Source: Beroe forskalii (lineage: Eukaryota > Ctenophora > Nuda > Beroida > Beroidae). Taken from it: a stretch of 64,000 bases of DNA. Position numbers and translations under genes: made by a program. The notes under the pieces were generated by a model. It did not search any database. It saw nothing but the letters and a program-made list of their open reading frames with translations, and was not told the DNA's origin. Location of the stretch: positions 124,001-188,000 of the forward strand of contig WFMF01000241.1 in assembly GCA_011033025.1 (NCBI GenBank), read 5' to 3'. Shown one piece after another: positions 11,034-61,227 of the stretch (positions are counted from its first letter, which is position 1; each line of letters opens with the position of its first letter).

Positions 11034-14000
11034 TCACCGGAGTTTCGTGCCCTTGGTAAGTCCTGACTTGATACCGCTTTTCTCGCCCTGATAGACCCCA
11101 CCTTGGTCCCGCATGTCAGGGACTTGGGACCTTCTCTTCTTCAGCGCCTTGTCGAACTTGTTCCGATGCTTAACACGCGGGTTTCGCTGCTCTTTCTTCC
11201 GGTGTGGTGTCAATCCCTGCGGAAGAATGGTGTCAATCCCTGCGGGAGAATGGTGTCAATCCCTGCGAAAGAATGGTGTCAAACCCTTCGGGAGAATGGT
11301 GTCAATCCCTGCGGGAGAATGGTGTCAAACCCTGCGGGAGAATGGTGTCAAACCCTGCGGGAGAATGGTGTCAAACCCTGCGGGAGAATGGTGTCAAACC
11401 CTACGGGAGAATGGTGTCAATCCCTGCGGGAGAATGGTGTCAAAAATCCATCCAGTAAAAACCCTGATCCTGTTATCATTAACTCAAAACATTCCCCAAT
11501 TGGAGCTCTAATTTGGGAATTCACCGCGCAGGGTCTGTACCCTCTTGTAAGGATATGTAGTTTACTATGAATTAAAACCTGATTTCACGGTTCGAGTCGT
11601 TGAACAAGAGTCGCATGATTACAATTAATGAGTACTTTATTTATTCTCTTTTGACTCAATGGTAGTCGTACAAATGGAAACGATGAGGTTATTCAATGAC
11701 AATTAGAACCTTCCCACTTGCTAAGCGAGCAATCGAGCATCGCTCTCGCGCTGCTCGGGAGTTAGGTGCACGAATCACAAAGTGAGAAGATATTATTTCC
11801 TAATATTGCAACGTTTTGTTGCGAAGCTGCTGAAAATAAGTGGCTTTCGAAACAAATCTTTTAAAAACATATTCGACACTATAGTGGTTGCAGTATTAGT
11901 ACGTAATACGGTTCGTAATAATGGCTCGCTCCTTCGGGGCTCGACATTATTACTCACCGTATTATTTGTAATCGCACCTTAGCAGTAGTTTCCTGGACAA
12001 CTTTGAATTTGAGCCCTTTTTTCTTTTTTTTCTGAGCTTATCTTTATTTCCTTTAATTCGGCAAAGAATTCAATGAAGAGTTTACTTCCTCTAAGAATTC
12101 AATGAAGAGTTTACTTCCTCTAAGAATTCAATGAAGAGTTTACTTCCTCTAAGAATTCAATGAAGAGTTTACTTCTTCTTAGAATTCAATGAAGAGTTTA
12201 CTCCTTCTTAGAATTCAATGAAGAGTTTACTTTCTCTGAGAATTCAATGAAGATTTTATTTTCTCTAATCGTGACCACATCAAACCTATGTTCCTGTGGT
12301 CATACTGTTGACCAACGACCACAAAATGTGCTATCCACACTAACACTTCGAATAATATGTTCTATTGTTGGAGTAATTTATATTCACTTATAACTTTAAA
12401 AAACCTTATCATGAGTAATATGGCGCGGGTAAAACGCAAACTATTAAGCTGAATGAGACGTTGATCTGAGGCTAATAACCTACTCGACTATTCGACACAG
12501 AGACGCATTGCATATCACGCAGTAAAGTGAGGGATGCACGGCAACTGTCGTTGGGAATTCTTTATTAATAAGCGATAATTATCGCGAAAAAAGCGGTAAC
12601 TTTCGCTTTGCTGGTTGTTACGGGTAATAAAGCGCTTTTTTGGACCCTGAAAAAGCACTTCGTTAGCGGTTTATTGGCGAACTTTTTTCCAACAAAGGGG
12701 TATTAAGCGCTTTTTGCGATAATCATCGCTTATTAATAAAAAGCTCCCGAAGACAGTTGCCGAAAGCACCAGTTGAAGTAAGGTCTTTCTTTTAAAGATG
12801 GCGCAGACCCAACTCAAGATGCTGGAATTTTTATAATCCATCAAAAATTGAAAATGTCTCCAGTTTTCGTGTTTTCTGACAAATCTGATAATCAAGAAAA
12901 AAATGCAGGCAAGGATGCCAGCATCTGCAGCGCCCCCAGAAGAAAAACTACAGTATGGGTTGAATTCAGTCATTGATAAGAGAGTGGGCACAGGACAGTG
13001 GTATTGATGTTAACAGTTGCTGGATTTTAAGCAACCCTCGAGTAATAAAAAGCAAGTTTTTGATCAAAGAATGAATTACTTCTTTAATCATCAGCACATT
13101 AAATAACTTGGCATCCTACATCAACATTTGAGGGAAGCACCACAATGTGGTAAGTATGGTAAGTGTGACAGCAGTGGTAGTTATGTGTCAGTGATATGAG
13201 CTGGTATAATTCACTATTTGGTGGAGATATGGCGACGGAGACTTCATTCAGAACCCGTGCAGTGTAAAAGGGTGCCACATGATATTTCAACAGAAGGCAA
13301 TGGTTAGGGACTAGGGTCTGCGTAAGGACTCAAGAGATTGAAGTTTGAATGATAAATTGGGACGAGAGAATTGTAATCAGAAGCTTCGAAAATCTTTTGA
13401 TTATTGTCGTCTGGGTAAGTGTTATGGTTAAGGCTAGAGAATAAGTTTAGGGTCTGGGTTAGGGTTATGGTTCGGGTTAGGGAAGAGAGATTAAGTGCTG
13501 TGATGTGAAATGTCTGAGTTATAAGTCGGGTTCCCCTTGTACCTTACCTTAGAGTACCTTAGAGTCCGTTTAGCCGGGATCACAGATGGGCGACGTCAAC
13601 ATGCGAGTCTTCCAAGCCTGCCATTCTGGAGCATCTCTGAACATTCCATTCAAGAAGGCTGTTGCTGTTCACAGCAGTGTATCCTGTTGTTGGAGGTGTA
13701 TCGGGAAAGCTTTCAAGAAATCTTCCCAGAGCCACTTTGAATGAATCAAGTGTGGACTGTTCATTAACAGATTTGGGAAGAATTGTTGTAGTGGGTCGCG
13801 ACTGACCTTTGAGCTTTCGGGTGTAGTCCTGGGACAGCAGTTTTCAAACCCAGTCTTGAGTTGTTTTTAAATACCATGCCAATGTCATTTGGGGCATCTC
13901 CGCAGGCGATTTTCCATGTATGGATGATAATGTATCGCTCCCTGCGTCGTTGGAGTGACATGATCCGAAGGTGTTTCAGCCTTTCCCAATAATCAAGGTC

Positions 14001-17000
14001 TTTGCAAGAACTAATTTTCCGTGTGTAGTTTATTTGTCCGCCCTGATTTAAGTTTCAACTGCCCTTAAGGGCGGAGTCGACCGAATCCAGTTTCCTAGGG
14101 CCGCTTAAAAACAACCTTTTGATTTGATTGATTGAAACCCACGGTGGGGCACCACTAAGGGCTTTGAAACAAATATAATGTGTACAATAAAAATCATAAA
14201 TAAAACCACAGAGACATTGAGATGGCTGAAAGCCATGTGTTCGCAGTACAGTGCAGTCTGAAATTGCGACTGTATCATGTCTATTTCCAATCTGACACTC
14301 AAAATCAGCACTCAAAAACATACAACATAGCACACTCAAAACGGTGGAAAAGGACTTGGCGGAGGGTTTCCACCCAGTCCTGTCCTGTGTGAGGGATCAC
14401 GGCCCGTGATTTGAATGTTCGTGGATGATGTAATCCGTGGCGTTGTCTGAGGCGTGATAGGCTGAGGTTGAGACGAACGCGATACATTGAGAGGAGAGGG
14501 TTGCACCTTTTCTCTGCTGCACACTTGTCCATTACTGATGTAATGATAAAGCTGTGGCTGGCTCTGATATTCTCCTTCATCTTGCTCACAAGTCCATTCC
14601 GTTCTGCTCTTTCTTCGCGCGTTCTATCGGGGAGATGAACACTCTGCTGAAACGAGTCTCCCGCAAGTTCTTGGCACTCCGTAACACCGCCGCTGCTCCT
14701 TCGATGCTGCGAAACACGATCTTGACTGGACGCCGGGCTCCTGCTCTTACACTCCCAACACGAACACAGTCACTAACTGCAGGCTTCTCCGTCGGACAGC
14801 TGACACTGAGAACTTCATCGATCTTCTCCCGCACGACTTCGTTGGATGCCTCCTCAAGTCCGAAAACCATCACGGTTCTCCTTCTGTCATCATCCATTAC
14901 AGCCGACTTGACTGCCGCTTTAACTTGCTTTGCTGTTATCTTCTCATCACAGCCCTGCTTCAAGACGTCGCTGAAACTCTTTATCTCCTTCTTCACAGTA
15001 GTCTCTAGAGCTTCAATCTTGTCGCAGTTACTCATTAACAGGCTCTCCTGGAGTTTACCTTTTAGTAGTGCCTTCTGGCACTCAATCTGTTCCTTGTGTA
15101 GCCCTTCCACGTACACAGCCGCTGATCGTAGCATGGTCTTACTCTTCCCCAGAACGCCCACAGCTGACAAAACGAGGGTTGAAAGGGTCGCTTTGTCACA
15201 CTTCATCAATGCTGCCTTCGACAACTCCTGCCACTTGTCACCAAACAATCCACTGAATACTGAGTCCACATCATGTTCCACTGCGTATAGATTTTCCAAT
15301 GAAAACTCCATTTTGTGTACTCCTTGTACACAGTGTTGCACAGAGTAATTGTGTGCGTGTTGCAGATTTGAGATAACTGATAAGCGAGCTGCAGATTTAA
15401 CACACACAAGAAAACTGATAATAGCAATCTGAGATAATAGCAACCGGTTTTATCTGTTGAAATTGAGTTGAAAAAGTAGATAAAAAGTCTATAATTTTAG
15501 TGACGAACATTTCACTTACAAAGGTACAAAAGTGATCGTGAAGGAATTAACCAAGTTTAATTCTTTCTGGACAAATCTTGGTCCGCTGTGTCAGTTCAAA
15601 TGGTCCAAGGATAATGTAATTTTCATTCGGGGGCCGGTTAAAAAGACCGACTAAAAGTGCAGGTAACATAAAGATCATTGCCCGAATTAATAGTCAAAGT
15701 TAATTTGAGTTAAATAATAGATCGTTGGAAAAATTATTGAATATGTAGGGAGAGAAAGTTCAAACTGAACCTGGGTATCACCCGGCCTAACGGAAATCAA
15801 AACGAAACATTTTCTTGATTGATCAATCGAATGATTTAATGAACACTGAACCGGACCGTAGAAGACAAGGGAACGTCCGTGCGCGCGAATTTACTTTATA
15901 CGCGCGCAATTTGCGCGAACATCATCGCTCAAAATGCAAACGTCTACGGCGACTCAAGTCTTGATCGAAATAGCGCGAAATTCTTGTGCTCTCTGAAATT
16001 GCGGCAATATCGAGAGCACTCAGCAAGTTTTGGCACACCCATTCATAATTTGTGGAAATGCAATTCACCGATGAGCTGTGCTATTCGGGATACTTGGTCG
16101 ATTTAAGGATTAAAGGTTAGCGTTTAGGGACAGGCATTCACGGTAATGGTTACTGGTTAAGTTTAGTAATTTTCACGGGCTACAATGACAAGTTTTGACG
16201 CTGTTCAGCTCTGAAGACTTACCTTATTCTTCATAATCTTGTAAGTTATCCCTCTTTTGTCCTCATCATCTTCCATCAGAGCGGGGTCTTCAGATGATAC
16301 CTCAATTCCTGAGAAAAAGCGAGAATTGGAATGGAATACTGACTTCCAAACATTGACTACTTTGAAAGTTTCAGAAGTTTTAAAGAAGAAACGGTGAAAA
16401 GAAGCCCCGGACAAAAGCCCCCCCCCCCTCTTGACCAAAAGCCCCAAAAGCACTTACGTGTAGTGTGTATATGAGCTTGTGTTGGGATTTAAAGGTTAGG
16501 GTTAGGATTGCAGGGGTTAAGGTTATGGTTAGGGACAGGGTAAGGGTTGAGGTTAGTGTTATGTTTAGGGCCATGGTTGCTGTTTGAGTTTGAGTTAGTA
16601 AGGGTTATGGTTAGTGTAAGGGTTATGGTTATGGTTAGAGTTTGTAGGGGGGGGGGGGGGCTTCTGTCATGGGAAGAAATATCATGAAAGCATTAACTCT
16701 TACCGGCTTTCTTCTTTTTCCGTTTCCGTTTCTTTTCCTCTGTTATCTTAGCTTGTTTTGCGTACAGATCCTCAGTCCTGATTTCAACGAATAAATATTC
16801 AGACTATCAAATTATCAACACATACCAAGCACTGCAATTTGCTTTTATCAAATAATTATATCATCAAATCATTTGATATGAACATTACTACTGTAACCAT
16901 GTTTACAGAGGGGGATGAGGGAGTCAGATATGAGGTACGATTGATAACCACGCCCCCGTCTAAGGGAACTTACTCGGGAAGTTCATCTTCAGAAAGTTTC

Positions 17001-20000
17001 CTTTTCTTCTCTTCCGCCTTCTCCTGAGCCCCTTCAGTGGAATTTAACAGGTTCTCGATCTCCTTTTCCAACGCCACATCTGGGAAAGTATTGAATTAAA
17101 TTTTGAATCAAAGCGTCGCCGCACGCTTTAATAATATTCTAAAAAAAGCGACGACTGGGACAATTATCAATGCTTTACAATTCGTAATCAATATAGACGA
17201 AACATTTCCTTGTGTTTGGAGATATTTCTTCGTATTTCACTATATTTCCTCGCGTTTGGAGATAATATTCCCTTGCATTTCCTTGTGTTTGAGAATATTT
17301 CTTCGCACCTGACAACATTTCCTTGTGTTTGAGAATACCTGTTTTGGAGCAGTTGTCCAGGAGTTTCCGCAGGCCCACAATCCGCTCAATTACAGGGTGC
17401 TCTGACACTGATGTCTTCTTGGCAGAGGATTGTAGCATCAGGTAAAACCTGCCCCAGGGATGTAATCAATCATTATCAGTGTGGTTATTGGCTGTTTTCC
17501 ATGCGATAACCAATTCAACGGAGACTTTAAGTTGCCATCTTATACTGGGCGTTTCACAAATACTGTGACTATTTCAATTAAAGTTCCAAATTCAAAAAAG
17601 ACAAAAAAAGGTAGCCAATTTCAATACATGCAATCCCAAATTGCCAACGTTCCCCAATCCCCGCGCCGCCTACTACTCAAGTACTCAACTTTCCTTAATC
17701 CCCCGCCCTCTACTAGTCAATTACCCGATGTTGAGGCAGTAGAGAAGGTTCAGCTGATACTTGGATTCTATGTAGCTGTGCGCACTGTCGCTGAACTTAC
17801 TGGTTTCACGACCTGATGAAAAAGGGTAATGAAATGAGTTGTGCAAAGCTTTTAGGACAGCCTTGAACTATTTCAACATAACCGGCTATTCGGTTGTCCG
17901 GCCGGCTAGCCGGTTGTGTCGCTGTATACAGTGTATACAGCGTATACACTATACAGGATACACTATACTATGTGTATAGTATACACTGTACAGTGTGTAT
18001 ACAGTGTATATACACTGTACAGTGTATACTGTATACACACTTTATACTTTTAAAGTTATACAGTACGCTGTACAACTTTTATAAGCCGGCAGTGTGGCAC
18101 AGTGGGGCGTGACATAAGGTCATCTGTATCTGTATCGGTCCTACACTCGACCAGCCTTTGTATACACTACCCAGTTCTACTTCCGTGTATGGAATTTCTG
18201 TTCAGTGTCGTGTTGTTGCAGTGCTTGGTACCTTGTCCAACCGTGTTACAATTCTCGCTTATTTACTTTCTCTGATTTCTTTGTATTATAATTTTGGTCA
18301 ATTAATTTATGAGCTAATTAGATACTTTATTTATCACCACCAAAACCGTTGGACGGTTGGTCTAGTAACCCCCGCTGGTTTGGATGTGATCAGCCCATTT
18401 TGTCTCTTTTCAGGTTCCGTTGTCACATCCAAACCCGCGGGGGGTTACTAGACCAACCGTCCAACGGTTTTGGTGGTGATATCTTGAAAGATGTATGTAG
18501 TTTGAAACCATGTTACTTTCCCAAAGGCAGTTTGGACCCACGTAACTTGCCCTAACGTAGTCAGAACCGACGTTACTAGCCCACACGCAAGTCTAACCCA
18601 CGTAACTCACCCTGACGAAGTCCAAAATTACGTTATTCTAGCTAGGAATTACTAGAATTGATATATTTCTTAATTTCTACAAATCGTCCACGTGAACTCA
18701 CGTGCTGAAATATAGCAACCAGATCTAATTTCACGTGCATTAGTCGTATTTGAACTCATTTCAACTAACCAAGTCGAAAATCCCGTAAATATCAATTTCT
18801 TCAAATCCCCTAATTTCTACAAAACGTCCGTGTACTCACGTGCTGAAATATAGCAACCAGATCTAATTTCGTGCATTAGTCGTATTCAAACTCATTTCAA
18901 CGTGATCATGTCGAAAATCCCGTGTAAATATCAATTTCTTCAAGTCTCCTAATTTCTACAAAACGTCCGCGTGAACTCACGTGCTTCACAAGTCCATCGT
19001 ATATTTCCCATCCCTATTCACTTCGAGACATGGAGAAACCATTATCAGTTCACCATCGTATCACAGAATAGGACTACAGTAAAAAAAATTTGTCATAAAC
19101 ATTATTTCAATCAATTTGCAGTTCAATTTTTAGAAGCTTCCCACGACAACAATCTTCGACCAATCGCCCTGGAACTCGTTTTACAGCTGAATCTCAAGGT
19201 CTTAAAGCATCATATCAAAGTAAAACATAATCCGATGAAAAATCTTTGAGTCGGAGATGTCCAAAGTAGCGCAAAAGTGCATTCTATCGCAAAATACGCT
19301 ATTTTAGTGGTTTTACGCGATTTTTATGACGTCATTACAGCACCAAAATAGGCTCAAACCAACTTCCCATATAGCCTAAGCCACAATTTCGCCTTAGCAC
19401 AACATACTTTGGCCGCTCTCATCTCAAGATAAGTCGCAGTTCTTGACATCTCACTCGTTTAAGTTTTGTCCAATAATTTGAAATTCAATTTTTCACCGTA
19501 CCTTAGAAAATCGCTTATATCTCGATGAAAAATCGAGATAGCCCAATGATCCATATGATTTTCTGAAAGCTCTTTAAATTTGCTAAAAATCATTCTGAAA
19601 AATCAGACAGCTATCTCCTTTCCTTCTTGCTGAAAAATGCGTTCGAAAATGGCCTATTTCCGCTAAAAAAGAAAGGAAATTTCGCTAAGTTGATGACGTC
19701 ATAATGGCGTCATAATGACGTCACCAGACCTTCTCACATAGCCTAATCCACAATTCCATCTTAGATGAACAAAACGTGACCTCGATCATGGCTCTATCAT
19801 TTCCCGTTCTTGAGATCTCATCGTTTTAAGATGGGCCCCAATTATCATGATATTATATATTATTATTATCACCACCAAAACCGTTGGACGGTTGGTCTAG
19901 TAACCCCCCGCTGGTTTGGATGTGATCAGCCCATTTTGTCTCTTTTCAGGTTCCGTTGTCACATCCAAACCCGCGGGGGGTTACTAGACCAACCGTCCAA

Positions 20001-23000
20001 CGGTTTTGGTGGTGATATCTTGACACATGTATGTAGTTGAACCCATGTTACTTGCCCAAAGGCAGTTTGGACCCACGTAACTTGCCCTCACGTAGTCCGA
20101 ACCCACGTTACTAGCCCACACGCAAGTCTAACCCAGGCAACTTACCCAGACGAAGTCCCAAACTATTTTATTCTAACTTGGAATTACTAGAATTGATATA
20201 TTTCTTAATTTCTACAAATCGTCCACATGAACTCACGTGCTAAAATATAGCAAACAGATCTAATTTCACGTGCATTAGTCGTATTTGAACTCATTTCAAC
20301 ATAACCAAGTCGAAAATCCCGTGTGAATATCAATTTCTTCAAATCCCCTAATTTCTACAAATCGTCCGTGTGTACTCACGTGCTGAAATATAGCAACCAG
20401 ATCTGATTTCACGTGCAATAGTCGTATTTAAACTCATTTCAACGTAATCAAGTCGAAAATCCAGTGTAAACATCAATTTCTTTAAACCCCCTAATTTCTA
20501 CAAAACGTCCGTGTGTACTCACGTGCTGAAGTATAGCACATGCATCTTATTTCATGTGCATTAGTCGTACTTGAACTCATTTCAACGTAATCAAGTCGAA
20601 AATCCTGTGCAAACATCAATTTCTTTCAATCCCCTAATTTCTACAAAACGTCCGCGTGAACTCACGTGCTCCACTAGTTCATCGTATATTTCCCATCCCT
20701 ATTCACTGTGAGACATAGAAAAACCATTATCAGTACACCATCGTATCACAGAATATGATTACAGTACAATTTTTCCTCAAACGTAATTTCAATCAATTTG
20801 CAGTTCAATTTTCAGAAGCCTCCCACGACAACAATCTTCTGTCGATCGCCCTGAAACTCGTTTTATTGCTAAATCTCAACGTCTAAAAGCAGAATATCAA
20901 AAGTAAAACATAATCCGATAAAAACTCTTTGAGTTGGAGATGTTCAAAGTAAGCATAAAATAGCATTCTATCGCAAAATACGCTATTTTAGTGGTTTAAC
21001 GCGATTTTGATGACGTCATCACAGCACCCAAATAGGCTCAAACCAACTTTCGATATAGCCTATAAAACAATTCCGCCTTAGTACAACATACTTTTGACCA
21101 GTCTCATCTCAAGATAAGTCGTAGTTCTTGACATCGCACTCGTTAAAGTTTTGTCCTATAATTTGAAATTGATTCTTCACCGTACCTTAGAAAATCGCGT
21201 ATATCTCGATGAAAAATCGAGGTAGCCTAATAATCCATATGATTTTCTGAAACCTCTTTAAATTCTCTAAAAATCATCCTGAAAAATCAGAGAGCTATCT
21301 CGCTTCCTTCTTGGTGAAAAATGCGCTCGAACATGGCCTATTTTCGCTAAAAAAGCGATAAAATTTCGCTAAGTTGATGACGACATAGTGACGTGAAAAT
21401 GACGTCACCAGAACTTCTCTTATAGCCTATAACATTTTCCCATCTTAAATCAACAAAACCTGACCTCGATCATGGTTCTACCATTTCCCGTTCTTGAGAT
21501 CTCGGCTTTATAAATTTGCTCCCAATTATCATGATCTATCTTATATCTATCTATATTATGCTTATATCACCCTGTGACACTCGTTCGTCAAATTATACCC
21601 TGGCCAGTCTTTTTTATTACCGCGGGGGGTTACCGCCCTGGCCAGGGCGGGAATATATTATATATTATATCACCCTGTGACACTCAAATCTCTAACTTAT
21701 ACCCCTGGCCAGTTTTCTTTTTACCGCGGGGGGTTACCGCCCTGGCCAGGGCGGGAATTATATATTATATCACCCTGTGACACTCAAATCTCTAACTTAT
21801 ACCCCTGGCCAGTTTTTTTTTATTCCGCGGGGGGTTACCTCCCTGGCCAGGGAGGGAATAATCTTATTAGTACAGCATTAAATTATTTCCAGTGTATGAA
21901 GTATTGGCTCGGGTGAGTGGTGCCGGTATAGAAGTACTTTAAGCCCGCCGTTGTTATTGTTCATTGCTACAATACGATGCCCGTCTCAAGGCGTGGAAGC
22001 CAATGTCTGATTCAATAAACTAAAGCCTTTCATTGCGTATAGTGTAAAAAGTACTGATTGGTCAATTAATGTATACACTGTATACAGTCCACCAACCTAG
22101 TTGAAGCAGAGGGTACACTGTACAGTACACACTATACACTGTACAGTGTATACTGTATACTGTATACACAGTATACAGTAAACCAACCTAGTTGCAGCAG
22201 AGGGTACAGAGGATCCTGCGCCTCGCTCATCTTGTCCCTGAATTCATCCAGCATTTCTGGGAGTTCTGGCGACCGCTGGGAGAGAGTGATATTGTTAGAC
22301 TTATTACTCTAAATTACTCTAAATTACTCTAAATTACTCTAAATTACTCTAAATTACTCTAAATTACTCTAAATTACTCTAAATTACTCCAAATTACTCT
22401 AAATTACTCTAAATTACTCTAAATTACTCTAAATTACTCTAAATTACTCTAAATTACTCTAAATTACTCCAAATTACTCTAAATTACTCTAAATTACTCT
22501 AAATTACTCTAAATTACTCTAAATTACTACAAATTACTCTAAATTACTCTAAATTACTCTAAATTACTCTAAATTACTCTAAATTACTCTAAATTACTCT
22601 AGTAGATTACTCTAAATTACTCTAAATTACTCTAGTAGATTACTCTAAATTACTCTAAATTACTCTAAATTACTCTAAATTACTCTAAATTACTCTAAAT
22701 AACTCTAAATTACTCTAAATAACTCTAAATTACTCTAAATTATTAGGTACTAGCTGCTTTTACGGCACATATAATATAGAACTATAGGTCGAAGGAGTAA
22801 CCTAATACCACATATATATAGTGAGCGCGAAGCGCGAACTATATATAGACGCATTATTGGCCGAAGCGAAGCTGAGGTCAATAATGGTTTGTTTTGGACG
22901 AGGCGAAGCCGAGTTCAAAACAATGTGGTATTAGGTACTCCTGAGACCTATGGTGATATTACATGGCGAAATAACATAAATTATGTGGTGGAAACTCATT

Positions 23001-47000: not shown

Positions 47001-50000
47001 AGCGGTTTGTAGATTAAAAAACACTATCGAAACGACGGCTTATCATAATGTGAGCCGAAGCTTCACACTGCATAACATGTATTTAAAAAGGAAAAAAAGG
47101 AAAAAGGTAGTTCCCTAGAAGTTAAGTAAATTTATGATTTGCTGTTGGTGTCGGCATCAGACAAACGGAATGGTTAATTCTTTGATACCTCAATGGTAGT
47201 CAGACATGCACCAAGTATAAAGCACTTAATAATAAACAATTTATGACTAGCAACTACTCAAATTAAATTGGAAAGCATGCAGATTGCAAGTGTGAAGATC
47301 ACCGAGAATAAGTCTATTCGATCTGTTGAGATGGAAGGCACAGTTTATATCTTGCCTGCTTCCAAAAGACCGACAGGTCTGTCTTTTCTTTTTTCTTTCT
47401 TAAGTGTCATTCTGTTATTGCTCACGGATCTGATAATTTTGTAGCGCTCTCGAACAACAGAACAGCTCAGATACACACATCCATACACATTAGGATCACT
47501 TACTGCATGTTGCTCGACTTACCCGGTAAGCCATCCTCCAAATATGGAATAATTAGCTTTCTGTGATAAGGTCTTCCAACACTACATGTTTATAGTAGGC
47601 GTAACTGGGAGCTAGGCAAGGCATAAGACCTATTCGATCGACTTGGTGATTGATCTGTGGCCGGTGTTCAGTGTACAATAACTCAATAAAGCGATGATAA
47701 TCTCACACCGGATACTGTAAGACTGTGTGTTGCGGGGATTGTCAGACGTCCACAGTTAAATATTATTCTGCCTTTTTCGAACGCAAGGTAAGAAAACCGG
47801 GTAATAAAGGTGCTCTGTAGCAACTAGCATAGGCCCGTTAATAAGCTTTTTGTGCTGGACTGGCACCCTGTTCCACTGTTAATGAACAGGGAGAGTCGCC
47901 GAGGAGCGGCCAGTGGACTGCTACTTTGTACTTTTGTAATGGTATTCTAACATCAACATAAAATACTTTGTACCGGTATTCTACCTTCAACATAGGTTTT
48001 AAGAAATGCAGTGCACACAGCTCTCATACGCTGTGGAACTGCTGCCCTTCGAAGCCCCCCATCAGAGTGTAGCCGGGTTTTAGAAAGGGCTCGGCGGGTT
48101 ACATTCAAACCTGTTGAATGTCTTATTTTGCTCGAATCATACAAAAGTTCACAATCTCTGTTCGAAAGGGGGGGGGGTGCCAATCTATTCAATGCAGTAC
48201 TTTTCTCAACAAACTTAAGTAGATTCTAAGCTCTGCTCTTCCTTGGCATAAAGTTTACCGCGAGTGGCCAGTTCAAATCTCACAGATTTCCAGCGCACGT
48301 TCTATATATTTCTGATTACAATGCCACAGGCTGAGCTCTCTCAGCCAATGCATATCAAATAACAAACACACATACACACTGAAATAGAGAGCACTTACTG
48401 CACATTGGTCCACTTACCCGGTAGGACCGGTCTCCAAATATGGAATAATTAGCCTTCTGTGTCAAGGTCTTCCACTGCGGAGCGCGGAGTACCTTGAGAT
48501 TCATACTTTCACAGTAGGGAATCCATAGAAGCAAACGCCGTAAAGCTAGGTGCTAGAGAAATTTTATGAGACGTTGGCGGCTGGAAAATTCCTTTTAGTT
48601 TTGCCAAGATAGATTGGGCAATGGGCAGTCTTGAACTATCCCGACACCCCTGGCGAGCCGACCGGCCAACTGATGAGCCGGCTGGCCAGATTGATAAAAT
48701 AGGCCGGGACAATTCTCTGTTTGAATTCATAACAAGGTCCAAGGAAGCGTCAGACAGCATAATTTCCCTCGACTTAATCCAGAAGCCATGTACATCACTG
48801 AATACCCACACACAAACACACACAGTTCCTGTTGTGAGTGTACAATTCTGCTTAATGTATCATGACGTGTCCTGCGTATACTCGCACTAAGTCTGTCATA
48901 CCTCGTGAAGCTCGTGAAGCTCACCAAAACAGAGTCTGCAGAACTATCAGTTTTAGGTGCTTCCGACCTACACATGTGCACAGTTTATAGTCCCTCCCGC
49001 CTCTTATTTCAATCCTTGAATTAAAAAATCGGTATGCAGTATTTTGTTATGTTTGTAGTATACCCATACACCTCTATAGATAAGGCATTGGATTAAAGAA
49101 GGAATCTGCCGAATTCAAATAACAGTAAACCACGAACAAGCAGCGTCTTGATGCGCTGAACCATGCTAACATGCCGACTATTTAGTAGAAATACAGTAAT
49201 GTAATGATATCTTTGATCAGAATTCAGATCTGTAGGGTAACGGTCAAGGTTGATATATGTCGATGAGTCGAGGGGAAATAGAAGAAAGAATATATTATAC
49301 TATATTCTGACGTTTTCATGCGGGTCTATAATATTATGTATTTTATAGAGGAGACCGTGTGTAGTACATTTTGTGCTGCATACCCTAGTACCAGAAAAGC
49401 AGAAACATAGGCGACAAGAAATAAGGGTGATTTTGAAAAAATCGCCTTAATTTCTTGTCGCCTAAATAATATCTGGTCGTCATTAATGATTGATTGATTG
49501 AAAACGCCCAGTTGGCGCTGGCATGCGCCTCAATCCGGTGTAAATTCCACTACTGGTGGATTCAGTAGTGGAATGGGCTAGCATAGTGCAATGCTAGGGA
49601 GTCCAAATGTCTGAGAGTCAGGGATAAGACAGTTGAGAGCAGTCTCCAGAGCCACTCTCTAGGAGTAGAGTCGCATCCCGACGCTGGTGATATAATATGA
49701 CAGGTAGACAGGTGGTTTTAAGATTCATCAATCAATCATCATATTAGTTTCTATTGGTAGTTTCTATTGGTACTCATTATTAGTGTAGTAATACCATTAA
49801 AACGTCGTGGTCTTGTCAACACGACGTTTTAATGGCATTAATACACACGTCTACCTGATCCGTCCCTGGCCATAAGGTGCTCCAATATTTCCAATATTTT
49901 CATGGATATCAAGTCTACGTCCGATTTTAAATGTTATCGTATCAATTTTAAACGTTTTAAACTTGCTCCCTAAGTTCCACAATACTGTTAAATCATTAAT

Positions 50001-53000
50001 GTCAGACACATGTTTGTACCTGATCTCGTCTCTGGCCAGAAGGTGCTCCAATATTTCCAATATTTCCATGGATATCAAGTCTACGTCCGATTTTAAATGT
50101 TATCGTATCAATTATAAACGTTTTAAACTTGCTCCCTAAGTTCCACAATACTGTTAAATCATTAATGTCAGACACATGTTTGTACCTGACCCGTCCCTGG
50201 CCAGCAGGTGCTCCAATATTTCCATGGATATCAAGTCTACGTCCGATTTTAAATGTTATCGTATCAATTATATAAAAGTTTTAAACTTGCTCCCTAAGTT
50301 CCACAATACTGTTAAATCATTAATGTCAGACACATGTTTGTACCTGACCGTCCCTGGCCAGCAGGTGCCAACTCCAATATTTCCATGGATATCAAGTCTA
50401 CGTCCGATTTTAAATGTTATCGTATCAATTATAAACGTTTTAAACTTGCTCCTAAGTTCCACAATACTGTTAAATCATTAATGTCAGACACATGTTTGTA
50501 CCTGACCCGTCCCTGGCCAGCAGGTGCTCCAATATTTCCATGGATATCAAGTCTACGTCCGATTTTAAATGTTATCGTATCAATTATATAAACGTTTTTA
50601 ACTTGCTCCCTAAGTTCCACAATACTGTTAAATCATTAATGTCAGACACATGTTTGTACCTGACCCGTCCCTGGCCAGCAGGTGCTCCAATATTTCCATG
50701 GATATCAAGTCTACGTCCGATTTTAAATGTTATCATCAATTATATAAACGTTTTAACTTGCTCCCTAAGTTTACAATACTGTTAAATCATTAATGTCAGA
50801 CACATGTTTGTACCTGATCTCGTCCCTGAAGTTCAATATTTCCATGGATATCAAGTCCGATTTTAAATGTTATCATAAAATGTCAGACACATGTTTGTTA
50901 CAATACTGTTAAATCTCGTCCCATGTTTGACCAGAAGGTGCTCCAATATTTCCATGGATATCAAGTCTACGTCCGATTTTAAATGTTATCGTATCAATTA
51001 TAAACGTTTTAAACTTGCTTCCTAAGTTCCACAATACTGTTAAATCATTAACAGTCAGACACATGTTTGTACTCTCGACCTGTCCCTGGCCAGCAGGTGC
51101 TCCAATATTTCCATGGATATCAAGTCTACGTCCGATTTTAAATGTTATCGTATCAATTATATAAACGTTTTTAACTTGCTCCCTAAGTTCCACAATTGTT
51201 AAATCATTAATGTCAGACATGTTTGTACCTGACCCGTCCCTGGCCAGCAGGTGCTCCAATATTTCCATGGATAGATCAAGTCTACGTCCGATTTTAAATG
51301 TTATCGTATCAATTATATAAACGTTTTAACTTGCTCCCTGGTTCACAATACTGTTAAATCATTAATGTCAGACACATGTTTGTACCTGATCTCGTCCCTG
51401 ACCAGAAGGTGCCCAATATTTCCATGGATATCAAGTCTACGTCCGATTTTAAAATGTTATTTTAATAAACGTTTTAAACTCGTATCAATTTAAACGTTTA
51501 AACTTGCTCCTAAGTTCCACAATACTGTTAAATCATTAATGTCAGACATACGTTTGTACCTGACCGTCCTGGCCAGAGACCAGAGGTGCCCAATATTTCC
51601 AATATTTTCATGGATATCAAGTCTACGTCCGATTTTAAATGTTATCATCAATTATAAACATTTTAAACATTTTGGGGCCAAAACTTGCTCCTGTTAACAA
51701 TACTGTTAAATCATTAATGTCAGACACATGTTTGTACCTGATCTCGTCCTGACCAGAAGGTACCCAATATTTCCATGGATATCAAGTCTACGTCCGATTT
51801 TAAATGTTATCGTATCAATTATAAACGTTTTAAACTTGTGTAGTAATACCATTCGTCCTTAAGTTCCACAATACGTTAAAAATCATTATGGATATGTCAG
51901 ACGTATCATGTTTCCTAAGGCCTGATCTAGACACATGTACCTGACCAGAAGGTGCTCCAATATTTCCATGGATATCAAGTCTACGTCCGATTTTTAAATG
52001 TTATCGTCCGATTTTAAAATTAACTTGCTCTAAGTTCCACAATACTGTTAAATCATTAATGTCAAACGTTTTAACCTTTGCACCCAGGTGCTCAATATTT
52101 CCATGGATATCCACGTCCAATACTGTTTTTTAACTTGCATTAAGTTCCAATAACAATATGTTAAATCATTAATGTCAGACACATGTTTGTACCTGATCTC
52201 GTCCCTTGACCAGGAGACCATGGATATCAAGGATTTTAAATGTTATCGTATCAATTATAAATAATTTCCAAGTTCCACAATTTTAAATCATTAATGGACA
52301 CATGTTTGTACCTGACCCGTCCCTGGCCAGGAGACCAGGAGGTGCTCCAATATTTCCAATATTTTCATGGATATCAAGTCTACGTCCGATTTTAAATGTT
52401 ATCGTATCAATTATAAACATTTTAAACTTGCTCCCTAAGTTCCACAATACTGTTAAATCATTAATGTCAGACACATGTTTGTACCTGATCTCGTCCCTGA
52501 CCAGAAGGTGCTCCAATATTTCCATGGATATCAAGTCTACGTCCGATTTTAAATGTTATCGTATCAATTATAAACGTTTTAAACTTGCTCCCTAAGTTCC
52601 ACAATACTGTTAAAAATCATTAATGTCAGACACATGTTTGTACCTGATCTCTGTCCCTGAAAAGGTGCTCCAATATTTCCATGGATATCAAGTCTACGTC
52701 CGATTTTAAATGTTATCGTATCAATTATAAACGTTTTAAACTTGCTCCCTAAGTTCCACAATACTGTTAAATCATTAATGTCAGACACATGTTTGTACCT
52801 GACCCGTCCCTGGCCAGGAGACCAGGAGGTGCTCCAATATTTCCAATATTTTCATGGATATCAAGTCTACGTCCGATTTTAAATGTTATCGTATCAATTA
52901 TAAAAGTTTTAAACTTGCTCCCTAAGTTCCACAATACTGTTAAAATTAATGTCAGACACATGTTTGTACCTGATCTGTGAAGGGTGCTCCAATATTTCCA

Positions 53001-53753
53001 TGGATATCAAGTCTACGTCCGATTTTAAATGTTATCGTATCAATTATAAACGTTTTAAACTTGCTCCCTAAGTTCCACAATACTGTTAAATCATTAATGT
53101 CAGACACATGTTTGTACCTGATCTCGTCCCTGGCCAGAAGGTGCTCCAATATTTCCAATATTTTCATAGATATCAAGTCTACGTCCGATTTTAAATGTTA
53201 TCGTATCAATTATATAAAAGTTTTAAACTTGCTCCTAAGTTCAATACTGTTAAATCATTAATGTCAGACATGTTTGTACCTGATCTCGTCCCTGGCCAGA
53301 AGGTGCTCCAATATTTCCAATATTTCCATGGATATCAAGTCTACGTCCGATTTTTTAAATGTTATCGCATCAATTTTAAACGTTTTAAACTTGCTCCCTA
53401 AGTTCCACAATACTGTTAAATCATTAATGTCAGACACATGTTTGTACCTGATGTCGTCCCTGGCCAGAAGGTGCTCCAATATTTCCAATATTTTCATGGA
53501 TATCAAGTCTACGTCCGATTTTAAATGTTATCGTATCAATTATAAACGTTTTAAACTTGCTCCCTAAGTTCCACAATACTGTTAAATCATTAATGTCAGA
53601 CACATGTTTCTACCTGATCTCGTCCCTGGCCAGAAGGTGCTCGTCCACCTCATCTCTGAGAAAGTCCTCCTCATTGAGCAGTGCCTGGCTCTCATCCAAA
53701 GCTGCTGGGGCTGCCACCGGGGCTGTACGTCTCTTGGACTTCTTCTTACCCAT
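11034..53753 (-). CDS. UTP3: UTP3/SAS10 small-subunit processome protein, 13 exons
   Basis: Nucleolar component of the U3 snoRNP/SSU processome needed for 18S rRNA maturation. Exons: 53753-53614, 38166-38057, 36826-36733, 35836-35746, 34800-34715, 31582-31483, 22275-22188, 17812-17725, 17448-17339, 17079-16974, 16777-16704, 16308-16223, 11216-11034. Lengths sum to 1,356 nt, 451 codons plus stop, with matching phases throughout; the human protein is of similar size. The N-terminus has an acidic tract (about residues 70-83) and WGKKKSVYY (about 120); the Sas10/Utp3/C1D domain covers about 195-300, including YCLNIGFYLM and HPVIERIVGLRKLL; the C-terminus has RGITYKIMKNKGLTPHRKK and NPRVKHR, the Sas10 signature. 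All sites are GT-AG; the exon 3 acceptor (after ATGAG) is the weakest call. The gene is expanded by repeats and transposons in nearly every intron, and a sulfotransferase gene lies in intron 6. Confidence 0.93.
11211..11455. repeat. 23-bp array of the UTP3 exon 13 acceptor
   Basis: Eleven 23-bp units, on the minus strand reading TTCTCCCGCAG then GGATTGACACCA or GGTTTGACACCA. The copy at the exon edge is the real 3' splice site and first codons (GLTP) of UTP3 exon 13; the others repeat the same AG and exon start upstream in intron 12. Using an upstream copy would reach a TGA after about ten codons. The period is not a multiple of three, so all three plus frames stay open here. Confidence 0.9.
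11795..11988 (+). repeat. Dispersed repeat, copy A (inverted partner at 35.4-35.6 kb)
   Basis: Words such as TTTCGAAACAAATCTT, ACATATTCGACACTATAGTGG and TTACTCACCGTATTA recur in reverse orientation at about 35424-35590. The 3' part also holds a GGCTCGCTCCTTCGGGGCTCG hairpin region. No coding potential; probably a transposon fragment in UTP3 intron 12. Confidence 0.65.
12060..12262. repeat. 29-bp tandem repeat (AGAATTCAATGAAGAGTTTA)
   Basis: Seven head-to-tail copies of a 29-bp unit, AGAATTCAATGAAGAGTTTA followed by CTTCCTCTA, each with an EcoRI word; the last copies are the most diverged. Confidence 0.9.
12539..12762. mobile_element. MITE-like inverted-repeat element
   Basis: About 60-bp terminal inverted repeats start CGGCAACTGTC and end GACAGTTGCCG, with TATTAATAAGCGAT in both arms and several differences between them. 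The middle contains AAGCGCTTTTT-type palindromes. No clear target duplication. It sits in UTP3 intron 12; 12763-13328 shows no gene. Confidence 0.7.
13329..13415 (+). repeat. Dispersed repeat, partner at 45.22-45.32 kb
   Basis: AATTGTAATCAGAAGCTTCGAAAATCTT and the flanking GATTGAAGTTT and GATTATTGTCGTC words recur in the same order at about 45222-45320. Telomere-like GGGTTAGGGTTATGG words follow at 13455-13480. Confidence 0.6.
13531..14041 (-). pseudogene. LINE (CR1/Jockey-like) reverse transcriptase C-terminus and 3' end, broken
   Basis: The minus strand encodes the usual tail of a non-LTR reverse transcriptase: FTRKI-like TRKISSCKDLDYWERLK, then SLQRRRERYIIIHTWKI and NNSRLGLKT, a break near 13765, then STLDSFKVALGRFL, DTPPTTGY and NSLLEWNVQR to a stop near 13570. 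The element ends in a short CTAAGGTA repeat (13535-13565). The rest of ORF2 is missing, so it cannot move by itself. Inserted in UTP3 intron 12 in the same orientation as the gene. Confidence 0.8.
14330..15311 (-). pseudogene. LINE ORF1-like protein with RRM-type domain, frame-broken
   Basis: The open frame from the ATG at 15311 to 14586 (241 codons) has a helical N-terminal half and an RRM-like half with TVMVFGLEE, SDCVRVGSVR, RPVKIVFRS and RSAKNLR, typical of ORF1 nucleic-acid chaperones of CR1/L2-type LINEs. Homology continues past the stop in a neighbouring frame (GLVSKMKENIRASHS), so a one-base change seems to have cut the 3' end near 14590; that frame runs to about 14340. A longer in-frame extension to 15443 exists, but MEFSLENLY is the better start. 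Possibly the 5' part of the same element as the fragment at 13531-14041; the intervening 14042-14330 is not recognisable ORF2. Confidence 0.7.
16485..16640 (+). repeat. Degenerate telomere-like GGTTAGGGT repeats in UTP3 intron 11
   Basis: Runs of GGTTAGGGTTAGG and variants (GGTTATGGTTAGGG) fill most of the 395-bp intron between exons 11 and 12. A similar short patch lies at 13455-13480. Probably a decayed TTAGGG-derived microsatellite. Confidence 0.6.
17205..17338. repeat. Short tandem repeat beside the UTP3 exon 9 donor
   Basis: About five degenerate copies of TTTCCTTGTGTTTGAGAATA(TTTCTTCGC) begin immediately after the exon 9 donor and occupy half of intron 9. The duplicate at 63667-63735 keeps only about two copies. 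Confidence 0.75.
17925..18075. repeat. GTATAC/TGTACA palindromic microsatellite
   Basis: Interleaved GTATACAC, TGTACAGTG and ATACTGTATAC words form overlapping palindromes. Related arrays lie at 22062-22185 and, in the inverted duplicate, at 62985-63115. Confidence 0.85.
18335..18481. repeat. Long palindrome heading unit 1
   Basis: About 60-bp inverted arms begin ATCACCACCAAAACCGTTGG and end in its reverse complement, around a roughly 30-base loop that includes ATCAGCCCATTTTGTCTC. The arms differ by only one or two bases. Confidence 0.9.
19865..20016. repeat. Long palindrome heading unit 2
   Basis: Nearly identical to the palindrome at 18335-18481. It marks the start of the second tandem unit and, here, is preceded by TATTATTATTATC. 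Confidence 0.9.
21560..21860. repeat. Three units with CCNCCCTGGCCAGGGNGG hairpins
   Basis: Each ~100-bp unit starts TATCACCCTGTGACACT, passes CCTGGCCAGT and CCGCGGGGGGTTACC, and ends with a perfect 18-bp palindrome. Units 1 and 2 have CCGCCCTGG/CCAGGGCGG; unit 3 has CCTCCCTGG/CCAGGGAGG, changed on both sides so pairing is kept. Confidence 0.9.
22092..22120 (-). repeat. Duplicate of the UTP3 exon 7 end and donor
   Basis: Repeats 22182-22211: the last ~22 bases of exon 7 plus the GTTGGT donor, with a few changes, 91 bp into intron 7. It is embedded in the GTATAC microsatellite (22062-22185). Confidence 0.8.
22300..22743. repeat. 10-bp satellite (AAATTACTCT) next to UTP3 exon 7 acceptor
   Basis: About 43 nearly perfect copies of AAATTACTCT, with sporadic AAATTACTCC, AAATAACTCT and GTAGATTACTCT variants. 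It begins 25 bp upstream of exon 7 in the sense of transcription. Confidence 0.97.
22781..22952. mobile_element. Three-arm cruciform element with GCGAAGC hairpin tips
   Basis: An outer stem (about 22782-22813 with 22924-22951, including a perfect 12-13 bp ACCTAATACCACA pairing) encloses three hairpins. Arm 1 (stem TATATATAGT), arm 2 (stem CATTATTG) and arm 3 (stem TGTTTTG) each end in GCGAAGC, at 22827-22833, 22866-22872 and 22903-22909. d(GCGAAGC) is a known exceptionally stable DNA mini-hairpin. The single strand could fold as a cloverleaf. No open frame; it lies in UTP3 intron 6. Confidence 0.8.
23310..23580. repeat. ~125-bp direct repeat, two copies
   Basis: TGTAGGCAACTCACGTCATA opens each copy and AACATGGGGTTATAGGATCC closes it; the copies start at about 23321 and 23450. 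The middles differ moderately. Confidence 0.85.
23612..23742. mobile_element. Foldback element, single arm with GCGAAGC tip
   Basis: The outer stem ATAACTATAGGACA/TGTCCTATAGTTAT (perfect 14 bp) encloses a long stem GATGCATATT..TGCATATTG, whose tip is GAGGCGAAGCCGAG (GCGAAGC at 23676-23682). It shares the terminal word AACTATAGG and the tip with the element at 22781-22952, so they look like one family. Confidence 0.8.
24220..24830. repeat. ACCCGAACC / GGGTTCGGGTGG-rich foldback region
   Basis: ACCACCCGAAACCACCCAAC-type words at 24230-24310 face GGGTGGGTTCGGGTGG-type words at 24338-24360, and further diverged copies lie at 24450-24800. Similar words occur at 9040-9110. No gene. From 24830 to 25980 the sequence is AT-rich and unrecognised. 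Confidence 0.5.
25981..26023. repeat. 19-bp perfect hairpin
   Basis: CACTTAATTAGTGCGGTTT and its exact reverse complement surround a five-base loop. It is 27 bp left of the MITE at 26051. Confidence 0.85.
26051..26149. mobile_element. 99-bp palindromic MITE with 8-bp target duplication
   Basis: Arms of about 40 bp (TGATCAGGGTACAGCAATTC and onward) fold on an 11-base loop. TAAGGTAA flanks both sides exactly (26043-26050 and 26150-26157), an 8-bp duplication typical of hAT-type insertion. A partial relative (GACATGGCCCCATGG...CTACAGCAATTCTGTAC) lies at about 31088-31135. 26158-27231 has no convincing gene. Confidence 0.85.
27232..27279. repeat. 20-bp perfect hairpin
   Basis: ATACGCTAGAACAGCTATTC and its exact inverse (27260-27279) surround an eight-base loop. 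Confidence 0.85.
27298..27601. repeat. 11-bp minisatellite (AACTTCATTTC)
   Basis: About 28 tandem copies of AACTTCATTTC with AACTTCATTTA variants at the left end, 360 bp upstream of the sulfotransferase exon. Confidence 0.95.
27961..29151 (+). CDS. CHST15-like carbohydrate sulfotransferase, terminal coding exon
   Basis: Golgi type II membrane enzyme transferring sulfate from PAPS to a sugar, in CHST15 to GalNAc-4-sulfate of chondroitin sulfate; the substrate here is unknown. The exon follows a good acceptor (CACATCCCAACAG) and encodes 396 residues to a TAG. A hydrophobic anchor (ILCLTVIAALTFL) is at residues 3-15. GMPKCGSTDLFTK, the 5'-phosphosulfate loop, is at about 102; ILVIVRNPVGKLYSDY, the 3'-phosphate site, at about 217; and FYKPYNLQLANYLGD near the C-terminus matches the family. 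A short upstream exon with the start codon is expected but not found; the first in-frame ATG (28009) would cut the anchor. SSESEALPN is tandemly duplicated at about 74-94. The gene is antisense within UTP3 intron 6. Confidence 0.85.
   Translation: MRILCLTVIAALTFLKMTYQPTPMLYDYFTSVISIIDPPQKANLSALHHESPDVFNALPNSFLPQYRSFCWNSSESEALPNSSESEALPNSLWCLPAVYLAGMPKCGSTDLFTKMVWHPELTYPESKEYHYWARSRLGRDKVHIKNYHGHSIATKESFTEFRTLWLTPERVEENSLLMDGTQSLLWDQGNWETRYPWADYPPYYNSDLIHHLTPAAKILVIVRNPVGKLYSDYLYFGSRRENRSAESFVGDVEKGIKKFQGCLKTKDLHSCCYDSESFKGTKVRLTLGIYICYIKKWKETFKDNFMVVRLEDYTLTPISELMRIFEFLDVSPPDPQELNDFIESDKTRNKRRPRDELKGNMLEQTYVLLNDFYKPYNLQLANYLGDSKYSYDPKNQ
29152..31422. other. Noncoding intron sequence between sulfotransferase and UTP3 exon 6
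   Basis: No gene recognised. A hairpin AGAAGGCCC-AACGGGCCTTCT lies at about 30460-30481. A 61-bp direct repeat (GTGAACTCTATAACTACAAT AAGCATCACC type) occurs twice at 30746-30860. The rest is AT-rich. Confidence 0.45.
31423..31503 (-). repeat. 27-bp triplication of the UTP3 exon 6 donor
   Basis: The exon 6 end and splice site (minus strand TAATGAAG then GTACAGTT) is repeated at exact 27-bp steps: exon boundary 31483, then 31456 and 31429, reading TTATGAAG-GTAC. The two extra copies lie in intron 6. Confidence 0.85.
31735..32305. repeat. ~170-bp sequence present twice
   Basis: ATAGGATCTATTT...CACATTTTCTACTT, CTCATGAGGGAATG and TTCACTGGTGTTCCGGTGATC occur in the same order at 31738-31870 and 32118-32260; TTATTCTACTTATTC-like microsatellite words follow both. 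Confidence 0.8.
32517..34441. mobile_element. 1.9-kb G-tract-headed inverted-repeat element
   Basis: Begins with 12 G and ends with at least 12 C. Each end is a hairpin of (C)CCCATAAACCCCC facing GGGGGTTTATGGGGG around CGATATCCAC. TAAGTA flanks both sides exactly (32511-32516, 34444-34449), or 8 bp with one mismatch. Two blocks of a ~40-bp tandem repeat (AAAATGGTACCATTTCAGAA AAGGG type) lie inside at about 32790-33015 and 34085-34315, separated by a GC-richer segment (33016-33320) and unrecognised sequence. No transposase. Same architecture as the element at 38325-42860. Located in UTP3 intron 5. Confidence 0.75.
34462..34717. repeat. Foldback overlapping the UTP3 exon 5 donor
   Basis: Arms 34462-34570 and about 34600-34717 are ~80 percent inverted copies (CGGCGTATTAGAAATT, ATCACGTGATCTCC, TACCAAATGGACC). 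The right arm includes the exon 5 splice donor (CAA-GTTAGTTGCAG), so the left arm holds an inverted copy of it. Confidence 0.8.
34813..35218. repeat. 20-bp minisatellite (GCTGAGTACTCAGTTTTATT)
   Basis: About 20 nearly identical copies of GCTGAGTACTCAGTTTTATT begin 12 bp from the UTP3 exon 5 acceptor. TGAGTACTCA is itself a palindrome, so each unit can form a 10-bp dyad. Confidence 0.95.
35424..35592 (-). repeat. Dispersed repeat, copy B
   Basis: Inverted relative of 11795-11988: AATACGGTGAGTAATATTCG, CCACTACAGTGTCGAACATA and AAGATTTGTTTCGAAA occur in reverse orientation and the same order. Confidence 0.65.
36316..36412. repeat. Nested hairpin element, GGCC-TGC-GGCC tip
   Basis: Outer arms CATCCGAATTGAATGCATTA and the inverse at 36390-36412 pair at about 19 of 23 positions; an inner ATTAACAAT/ATTGTTAAT stem ends in GGCCTGCGGCC. 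It lies in UTP3 intron 3. Confidence 0.65.
36470..36560. repeat. Nested hairpin element with GGCGTAAGCC tip
   Basis: GGTCCAT/ATGGACC outer ends enclose GATAC...GTATC with the tip GGCGTAAGCC, a GNRA-type loop. Just right of it (36566-36600) is an inverted copy of a sequence also at about 49305-49340 (GACGTTTTCATGCGGGTCTA). Confidence 0.6.
37358..38056 (-). repeat. Array of UTP3 exon 2 donor copies in a GAG-rich tract
   Basis: On the minus strand, GCTG-GTAAGTGAAG or GCTG-GTGAGTGAA followed by GAGGAGGAGG recurs about 18 times at ~30-bp steps. The first copy is the real exon 2 end (boundary 38057) within its acidic-codon tract. Every copy is a near-consensus donor. Reading through the true donor meets TGA at once (GGT AAG TGA), so only the first site gives a full protein. 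Confidence 0.9.
38325..42860. mobile_element. 4.5-kb inverted-repeat DNA element, 8-bp target duplication
   Basis: Starts GGGGGGGGCAACGTCCCGC and ends with its exact inverse; the terminal repeats match at all but one of about 40 bases. GGTAAACC flanks it exactly on both sides (38317-38324 and 42861-42868). Each end also carries an internal fold of TTTGTCCCG/CGGGACAAA words. Inside are a 2-kb minisatellite (39520-41590) and TTTGTCC-rich sequence, with no transposase. The duplication length fits hAT-like or P-like transposition; the long G tract at the tips is unusual for these. The high similarity of the ends suggests a fairly recent insertion. UTP3 intron 1. Confidence 0.88.
39520..41590. repeat. 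29-bp minisatellite (GTGAGACTACGTGTCTCTGACACCAGCAG)
   Basis: About 65 copies of a 29-bp unit, AGCAGGTGAGACTACGTGTC followed by TCTGACACC, with shortened and diverged copies towards both ends. On the plus strand each copy has CAG-GTGAG, a donor-like word. It is carried inside the 4.5-kb transposon. Confidence 0.95.
42869..49409. other. UTP3 intron 1 interior with dispersed repeats
   Basis: No gene recognised in 6.5 kb. A repeat family with ATTATTCC.TAT..GGA and ACCGGGTAAGT occurs at about 44127-44170 and 44713-44755 (plus) and 47515-47570 and 48412-48462 (minus). Copies elsewhere match 45222-45320 (see 13329) and 49305-49340 (see 36470). Open frames here are short and repetitive. Confidence 0.5.
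45804..45969. mobile_element. 166-bp MITE with 39-bp perfect inverted ends
   Basis: Ends begin GGTAACTCGGTAATCTGCCG and are identical over 39 bases in opposite orientation. The middle is about eight copies of an 11-bp word, GTGCCCCAGGT and variants (GTGCCCGAGGT). No clear target duplication. Confidence 0.88.
49410..49462. repeat. 17-bp hairpin
   Basis: GGCGACAAGAAATAAGG faces CCTTAATTTCTTGTCGCC with a single bulged base and an 18-base loop. Confidence 0.8.
49794..49835. repeat. 16-bp perfect hairpin at the edge of the intron 1 satellite
   Basis: CCATTAAAACGTCGTG and its exact inverse flank a 10-base loop, 15 bp from the distal end of the 49850-53640 satellite. Confidence 0.85.
49850..53640 (-). 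repeat. ~160-bp satellite made from UTP3 exon 1 end plus donor
   Basis: About two dozen units of ~155-170 bp, several truncated or rearranged between 50.8 and 52.3 kb. On the minus strand each holds GAGCACCTTCTGGCCAGGGA followed by CGAGATCAG, which are the last 29 bases of UTP3 exon 1, then GTACAAACATGTGTCTGAC and about 110 bp of intron sequence. The first unit is exon 1 itself (boundary 53614, donor GTAGAA). The array therefore multiplies a coding exon end and a splice site through 3.8 kb of intron 1. Confidence 0.93.
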
Positions 53754-60900: not shown

Positions 60901-61227
60901 TCTTTCCTTCATAACCTTGCCTTTCATAACTGCAGTATTCCTGGGGTCAGTTTTAGGATAAACTCTGTGAGCAAGGAGAAGATGAGCAGACAGGTCAGCG
61001 AAATTCGAGTAATTCTTATTGCAAATCAAACACAAAGTGACCTCCGACGATTTTGTATCTGACAATACCAAATTAGAAGGTTGCTTTATGTGATGATTTC
61101 TGCCCTTCAGAGCAGGTATTATTCTCAAACTCTTGCCATGACAAATGAAGCCATCTATTTTCTTGCAGGCAACAGGCACATCACATTCAGATTGATACTC
61201 ACAGAGCCAGTACTGCATGTGTTGACC
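54975..61227 (-). CDS. Large multi-C2H2 zinc-finger protein, two open frames
   Basis: Probable nuclear DNA-binding protein; no specific family recognised. The first part runs from the ATG at 61218 (just after a TTTTTCAG acceptor at 61228) to TGA at 59737, 493 codons with about seven C2H2 fingers, a KRKMNRAPKEE basic patch and VKDEPIDSP, a likely SUMO site. The second frame, open from about 59780 to 54975, has about 22 more fingers, then from about residue 1180 a disordered Ser/Pro/Gln-rich tail with degenerate repeats, and a last finger (CTYCQRIF...HLLRSH) near the end. The frames overlap; they join by a short intron (for example donor near 59843, acceptor after GATGAAG near 59731) or by a one-base difference in the TTTT run near 59750. 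A further 5' exon is likely because the acceptor precedes the ATG. Confidence 0.85.

Follow-up and report, generated by a model that had tools for sequence, protein, structure and literature searches.

Gene content of the window

The window analysed here is a stretch of 64,000 nucleotides from the ctenophore Beroe forskalii. It contains an animal UTP3/Sas10 gene and a carbonic anhydrase gene, both on the minus strand. The gene models are listed below with positions numbered along the window.

53753-11034, minus strand: UTP3/Sas10 gene, 12 coding exons, 419 amino acids plus stop
53753-53614, 38166-38057, 35834-35746, 34800-34715, 31582-31483 and 22275-22188, minus strand: UTP3 exons 1 to 6
17812-17725, 17448-17339, 17079-16974, 16777-16704, 16308-16223 and 11216-11034, minus strand: UTP3 exons 7 to 12
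5488-2568, minus strand: carbonic anhydrase gene, model of 5 exons (5488-5409, 5072-4949, 4834-4723, 3094-2977 and 2692-2568)

The reading frame of UTP3 is intact, with all coding exons in phase after splicing, and GT...AG borders are found in 11 of the 11 introns of the gene model. A 416-aa draft of the protein matches the Pfam families PF09368 (Sas10, 3.4e-30) and PF04000 (Sas10_Utp3, 5.6e-12). An earlier and rougher draft of 310 aa matches the SAS10 chain of PDB 7mq8 (4.1e-18), which is a human entry. A previous sequence-only reading of this DNA had counted 13 exons in UTP3. The present model has 12 coding exons, and exons 5, 6 and 12 used here are exons 6, 7 and 13 of that reading.

The carbonic anhydrase model is supported by a match of a joined fragment to PF00194 (3.8e-14) and by a spliced frame that is open across the five exons; it is without a 3' end. 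Three of its four introns have GT...AG borders, the exception being the donor of exon 3, which reads GAGCGT.

Other features were also identified in the window. A sulfotransferase-like open frame (27874-29151, plus strand; PF13469 and PF00685) lies within intron 5 of UTP3, antisense to the gene, and carries a 27-bp (9-codon) duplication at 28174-28233. An open frame of 287 aa (14589-15449, minus strand) lies within intron 11. The Pfam search of this frame gave no match at E 0.01; by eye it resembles the product of ORF1 in LINE-type elements. The interval 54978-61263 on the minus strand holds two long open frames of C2H2 zinc fingers, of 1602 and 508 aa. The Rfam search of the window gave nothing that reached the gathering scores.

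Junction-copying arrays in UTP3

Five of the 22 splice junctions of UTP3 are copied into the adjoining intron. They comprise four donors (exons 1, 2, 5 and 6) and one acceptor (exon 12), so that both 5' and 3' borders are represented. The copies are listed below.

49816-53643, minus strand: exon 1 donor array, unit of ~160 bp (29 bp of exon end plus ~130 bp of intron), 24 intronic copies
37357-38087, minus strand: exon 2 donor array, 17 intronic copies detected, mostly at a spacing of ~28-30 bp
31420-31494, minus strand: exon 5 donor array, unit of 27 bp, 3 copies in total of which 2 are intronic
22067-22208, minus strand: exon 6 donor copy, a single intronic copy 91 bp downstream, 51 bp aligned
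11205-11444, minus strand: exon 12 acceptor array, unit of 23 bp, 10 copies in all, of which 9 are intronic and one is the true site

The junction-overlapping copies described in the sequence-only reading are real. Its count of 11 for the exon 12 acceptor is reduced to 10.

The donor GT is retained in 22 of the 24 intronic copies of exon 1, and TRF gives an additional period of 330 bp for part of this array. All 17 copies detected behind exon 2 read CTGGT(A/G)AGTGA, where the junction is CTG|GT. In the exon 12 unit, TTGAC, which resembles a branch-point consensus, is followed by pyrimidines, by (C/A/T)AG and by 12 bases from the start of the exon. AG|GT is present in the copies at exons 1, 5 and 6. 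The similarity includes at most 29 exon bases at exon 1, 37 at exon 2 (the figure spans 17-37 in sequence that is of low complexity there), 12 at exon 5, 21 at exon 6 and 12 at exon 12.

The five arrays have five different units (23, 27, ~29, 91 and ~160 bp). They are probably separate events because the units all differ, and they look as independent as the sequence-only reading had proposed.

Copies at carbonic anhydrase exon 3

The carbonic anhydrase gene exhibits one copied donor end.

4535-4749, minus strand: donor end of carbonic anhydrase exon 3, with one copy 178 bp downstream, at 4545

The copy falls inside a stretch that TRF calls a 22-bp array. The exon-attached copy continues after the junction with GAGCGT (4722-4717, minus strand), whereas the downstream copy continues with GTGAGT (4544-4539, minus strand). 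Read-through from exon 3 meets stop codons ahead of the downstream donor, and inspection by eye revealed no alternative donor that would simply restore the frame. The GAGCGT donor is possibly a broken allele or a sequence error. A candidate second copy of the exon 3 acceptor matches 17 of 24 bases and is doubtful; a match of 17 is reached by 4.7% of the positions in one Markov-simulated window.

Intron 1 of this gene (336 bp) is mostly a 13-bp repeat (5078-5386) that ends 6 bp from the acceptor.

Partial UTP3 copy and other repeats

An inverted partial copy of UTP3 lies at 62508-64000 on the plus strand and corresponds to 22050-16936 on the minus strand. It holds exons 7-9 with introns and reaches the end of the window. 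Identity to UTP3 is 88-91% over its main BLAST pieces. It is without 18335-21857 of UTP3 intron 6 and, within the window, stops short of the junction arrays. It may be a segmental duplication or a misplaced haplotype. The two sequences also differ by a 21-bp tandem duplication in the partial copy, by a gap of ~50 bp after exon 7 and by ~75 bp of repeats immediately inside the donor of exon 8, which UTP3 alone carries. Tandem changes therefore arise here both near junctions and away from them.

A 29-bp array of ~2 kb (39508-41586) lies deep in UTP3 intron 1, and its plus-strand unit contains the donor-like CAGGTGAGAC. An inverted pair of arrays with a period of 172 bp is found at 1-725 and 1323-2211, the longest BLAST piece between them being 85.8% identical.

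Comparison with known repeats at exon-intron borders

Tandem repeats over exon-intron borders have been named 'mirages' in amphioxus (PMC3087553, PMC3902484). In the sections of these papers available to us, the globin gene BflGb6 has an acceptor covered by units of 150-160 bp (6 in one haplotype and 3 in the other), the globin gene BflGb9 has a donor border that is copied with a length of 157 bp, and Adh3 has units of 10-72 bp, with reported instability of length and even somatic instability (PMC3087553). PGBD5 has two mirages of 60 and 108 bp, and TnC is cited as well (PMC3902484). The Adh3 data and the globin RT-PCR suggest regular splicing, and the mechanism is termed unclear (PMC3087553). 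Two other amphioxus papers (PMC2206037, PMC2632668) mention tandem repeats, with none at splice junctions in the portions of text available.

The UTP3 arrays are similar to the mirages so described. They span exon-intron borders at both 5' and 3' splice sites, their units of 23 to ~160 bp compare with a published range of 10 to 160 bp, and many copies, not all, carry AG/GT, as in the exon 1 array. They differ in number: a single UTP3 array holds 24 intronic copies and the gene has five copied junctions, compared with the 3 and 6 units of BflGb6. From their sequence, the UTP3 arrays are assigned to the already described mirage kind, and the kind itself is not new. The sequence-only reading had placed long arrays of this sort outside earlier models; on the published text available, the amphioxus mirages already describe them.

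Internal tandem repeats have also been reported to alter gene structure in human segmental duplications, some of them at exon-intron borders (PMC2812944). According to the part of that paper available, those repeats are minisatellite expansions, as here. Unlike here, they modify exons or introns of recent paralogues and can form new introns.

Junction copies compared with chance

Tandem arrays are common in the window, where 47 merged arrays cover 14464 of the 64000 bases. Of the 24-mers in UTP3 introns, 32% have a local duplicate, versus 5% inside the exons of UTP3 and carbonic anhydrase. The sequence-only reading had held that the copies are far more than chance placement would give, and had suggested a process that duplicates DNA at splice junctions. 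Such a process would be linked to transcription or to splicing, through R-loops where introns start, template switching or spliceosome-linked breaks, and would favour duplication at junctions. We regard it as rather unlikely. Nothing in the counts and alignments made here points to R-loops or to the spliceosome.

The junction copies exceed plain sequence chance: only 0.8% of the positions in one Markov-simulated window reach a match of 18/24 within 3 kb. Whether they exceed the repeat-rich background of the introns depends on the null.

The base null, with introns matched, gives no excess and so speaks against a junction-targeted process. In UTP3, 5 of 22 junctions were observed versus 6.2 expected (P(>=5) 0.81). 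At other thresholds the expected numbers are 7.6 (17/24) and 4.8 (20/24, P 0.55), with 5 observed each time. Both genes together give 6 of 30 versus 9.9, and carbonic anhydrase gives 1 of 8 versus 3.7. The total of 30 junctions in this null and in the collapsed null leaves out a 31st, the carbonic anhydrase exon 5 donor, which is not duplicated. The base null masks an excess, since a founder enters it as often as its array has copies and a junction enters it a single time.

The collapsed null weights every copy by 1/number of copies and was calculated at three thresholds. In UTP3, the 5 of 22 junctions then stand against 1.7-2.4 expected (P 0.01-0.05), which favours junction targeting. Both genes together give 6 of 30 versus 2.4-4.1, with P 0.07-0.18 when introns are matched, which counts against it, and 0.03-0.06 when they are pooled. 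Carbonic anhydrase gives 1 of 8 versus 1.4-1.8 (P 0.78-0.89).

The founder null takes one founder per TRF array and places it randomly outside exon interiors. Merged arrays outside both genes were left out of the count and the three TRF pieces of the exon 1 array were joined as one. Under this null, which is the fairest for founders and rests on one gene, chosen for looking unusual, and on the unit definition of TRF, 4 of 31 UTP3 arrays span a junction versus 0.39-0.65 expected (P 0.0006-0.0037, an excess of 6-10x). The exon 6 copy, for which TRF gives no array that covers the junction, does not enter the count, which is therefore 4 and not 5. The result is 4 of 21 arrays at a score of at least 80 (P 0.00025-0.003) and 3 of 13 at a score of at least 150 (P 0.004-0.01). 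In carbonic anhydrase, 0 of 2 TRF arrays span a junction versus 0.48 expected.

The claim of an excess thus holds against sequence chance and against the founder null in UTP3, and does not hold against the base null. The carbonic anhydrase gene, which the sequence-only reading had said to show the same, does have the donor-end copy at 4545, and as a gene it has no excess by junctions or by arrays.

Apart from the two favourable UTP3 counts, a junction-targeted process is favoured by the share of donors (4 of the 5 copied UTP3 junctions) and by the mirages published for several amphioxus genes, in the text available (PMC3087553, PMC3902484). Against it stand the carbonic anhydrase counts and the choice of the window, which was selected for showing this feature. 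Moreover, duplicated windows are not concentrated beside the 5' splice sites in UTP3 introns (0.41 within 50 bp and 0.27-0.50 in the bins farther away). Several arrays end short of junctions, by 18 bp at the exon 4 acceptor and 28 bp at the exon 6 acceptor of UTP3, and by 6 bp at the exon 2 acceptor, 4 bp at the exon 4 acceptor and 23 bp at the exon 1 donor of carbonic anhydrase. Arrays that halt near junctions are also expected from random placement. An excess of junction-spanning arrays over the intron background is possible, rather than shown.

Conservation of the copies and splicing at decoy sites

The arrays could instead function in splicing, as spare donors or acceptors that give isoforms or as regulators of UTP3 dosage through unproductive splicing. 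This is very improbable. The GT kept in nearly all exon 1 copies and the uniform motif of the exon 2 copies agree with such a function. Against it, homogenisation by itself keeps splice signals.

The conservation of the exon 1 copies also points away from such a function. The mean over the 24 copies is 0.916 for the exon-derived columns versus 0.983 upstream and 0.971 downstream for the intron-derived ones. The exon-derived part is thus the least conserved of the unit, and in many copies gaps in its columns disrupt the reading frame. For these two reasons, preservation of the exon 1 copies as exon was rejected. The intron part of 22 of the 24 copies is at 0.90-0.98 against the exon-attached copy; the distal end copy is at 0.77, one inner copy at 0.79 and the exon-adjacent copy at 0.98.

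The result of splicing at a decoy instead of the exon-attached site was also computed for 50 decoys. A premature stop is obtained from 48 of them (21 exon 1, 17 exon 2, 1 exon 6 and 9 exon 12 sites), which argues further against a function. The exon 1 decoys tested are 21 of the 24 copies, the remaining three being without the exact motif searched. The two decoys that stay in frame both belong to the exon 5 array and would add 9 or 18 aa; by this computation they are the decoys that could give isoforms.

Intron gain and assembly

The introns themselves might have been made by tandem duplication of AGGT sites, a reading to which we give hardly any credence. In that model, as set out in the text available, one duplication of an exonic AGGT segment creates a new intron (PMC3443670), and mirages have been proposed as a route to new introns (PMC3087553). 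The UTP3 duplications likewise carry splice-site letters, with AG|GT in the copies at three exons. Unlike that model, UTP3 has many copies inside introns of 2222-15447 bp, which far exceed the units. A new intron flanked by two copies that serve as its splice sites was not found: judged by eye, the partner splice sites do not reproduce the amplified edges. A draft protein also aligns to SAS10 straight over the exon 5-6 junction.

An assembly artefact is scarcely probable. In its favour, the inverted and diverged partial UTP3 copy at the window's right end may represent a misplaced haplotype, and the globin study, in its available text, describes a draft genome in which a mirage was mis-assembled (PMC3087553). 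Against it, the exon 1 copies carry substitutions and indels relative to one another, a pattern that simple mis-assembly does not produce, and the five arrays have unrelated units.

Origin and significance of the arrays

The UTP3 arrays are likely to be mirage-type minisatellites, that is, ordinary tandem duplications that chanced on junctions, were tolerated and were then amplified and homogenised. The founding event would be a short tandem duplication, by slippage, template switch or unequal exchange, that includes the exon edge and some intron. The extra copy would end up within the intron and would be tolerated, presumably as neutral, since a full splice site stays with the exon. As happens in minisatellites generally, later slippage or unequal exchange would multiply the unit and homogenise its copies. 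A decoy donor or acceptor is carried by most copies, and splicing would have to ignore nearly all of them because almost every tested one would bring a stop codon. The bias towards donors is a point against this neutral account; it may reflect selection against additional acceptors, which might do more harm when they precede the true acceptor. The founder-level excess also counts against the account; if the account holds, the excess must be due to the choice of the window or to some further bias.

The analysis also holds a lesson of method, since base coverage and founder counts answer oppositely. The 17 near-identical donors behind exon 2 and the 9 near-identical acceptors before exon 12 present a natural challenge for splice-site choice. 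Among the literature matches listed, the titles and the starts of the abstracts contain no genome-wide test of junction preference of such repeats. UTP3, with five junctions copied and an excess at the founder level, makes such a test worthwhile. It is rather unlikely that junctions, donors especially, are true hot spots for founding minisatellites in this lineage and that mirages are their genome-wide trace. If it is true, a process coupled to transcription or splicing would shape the intron DNA of this lineage.
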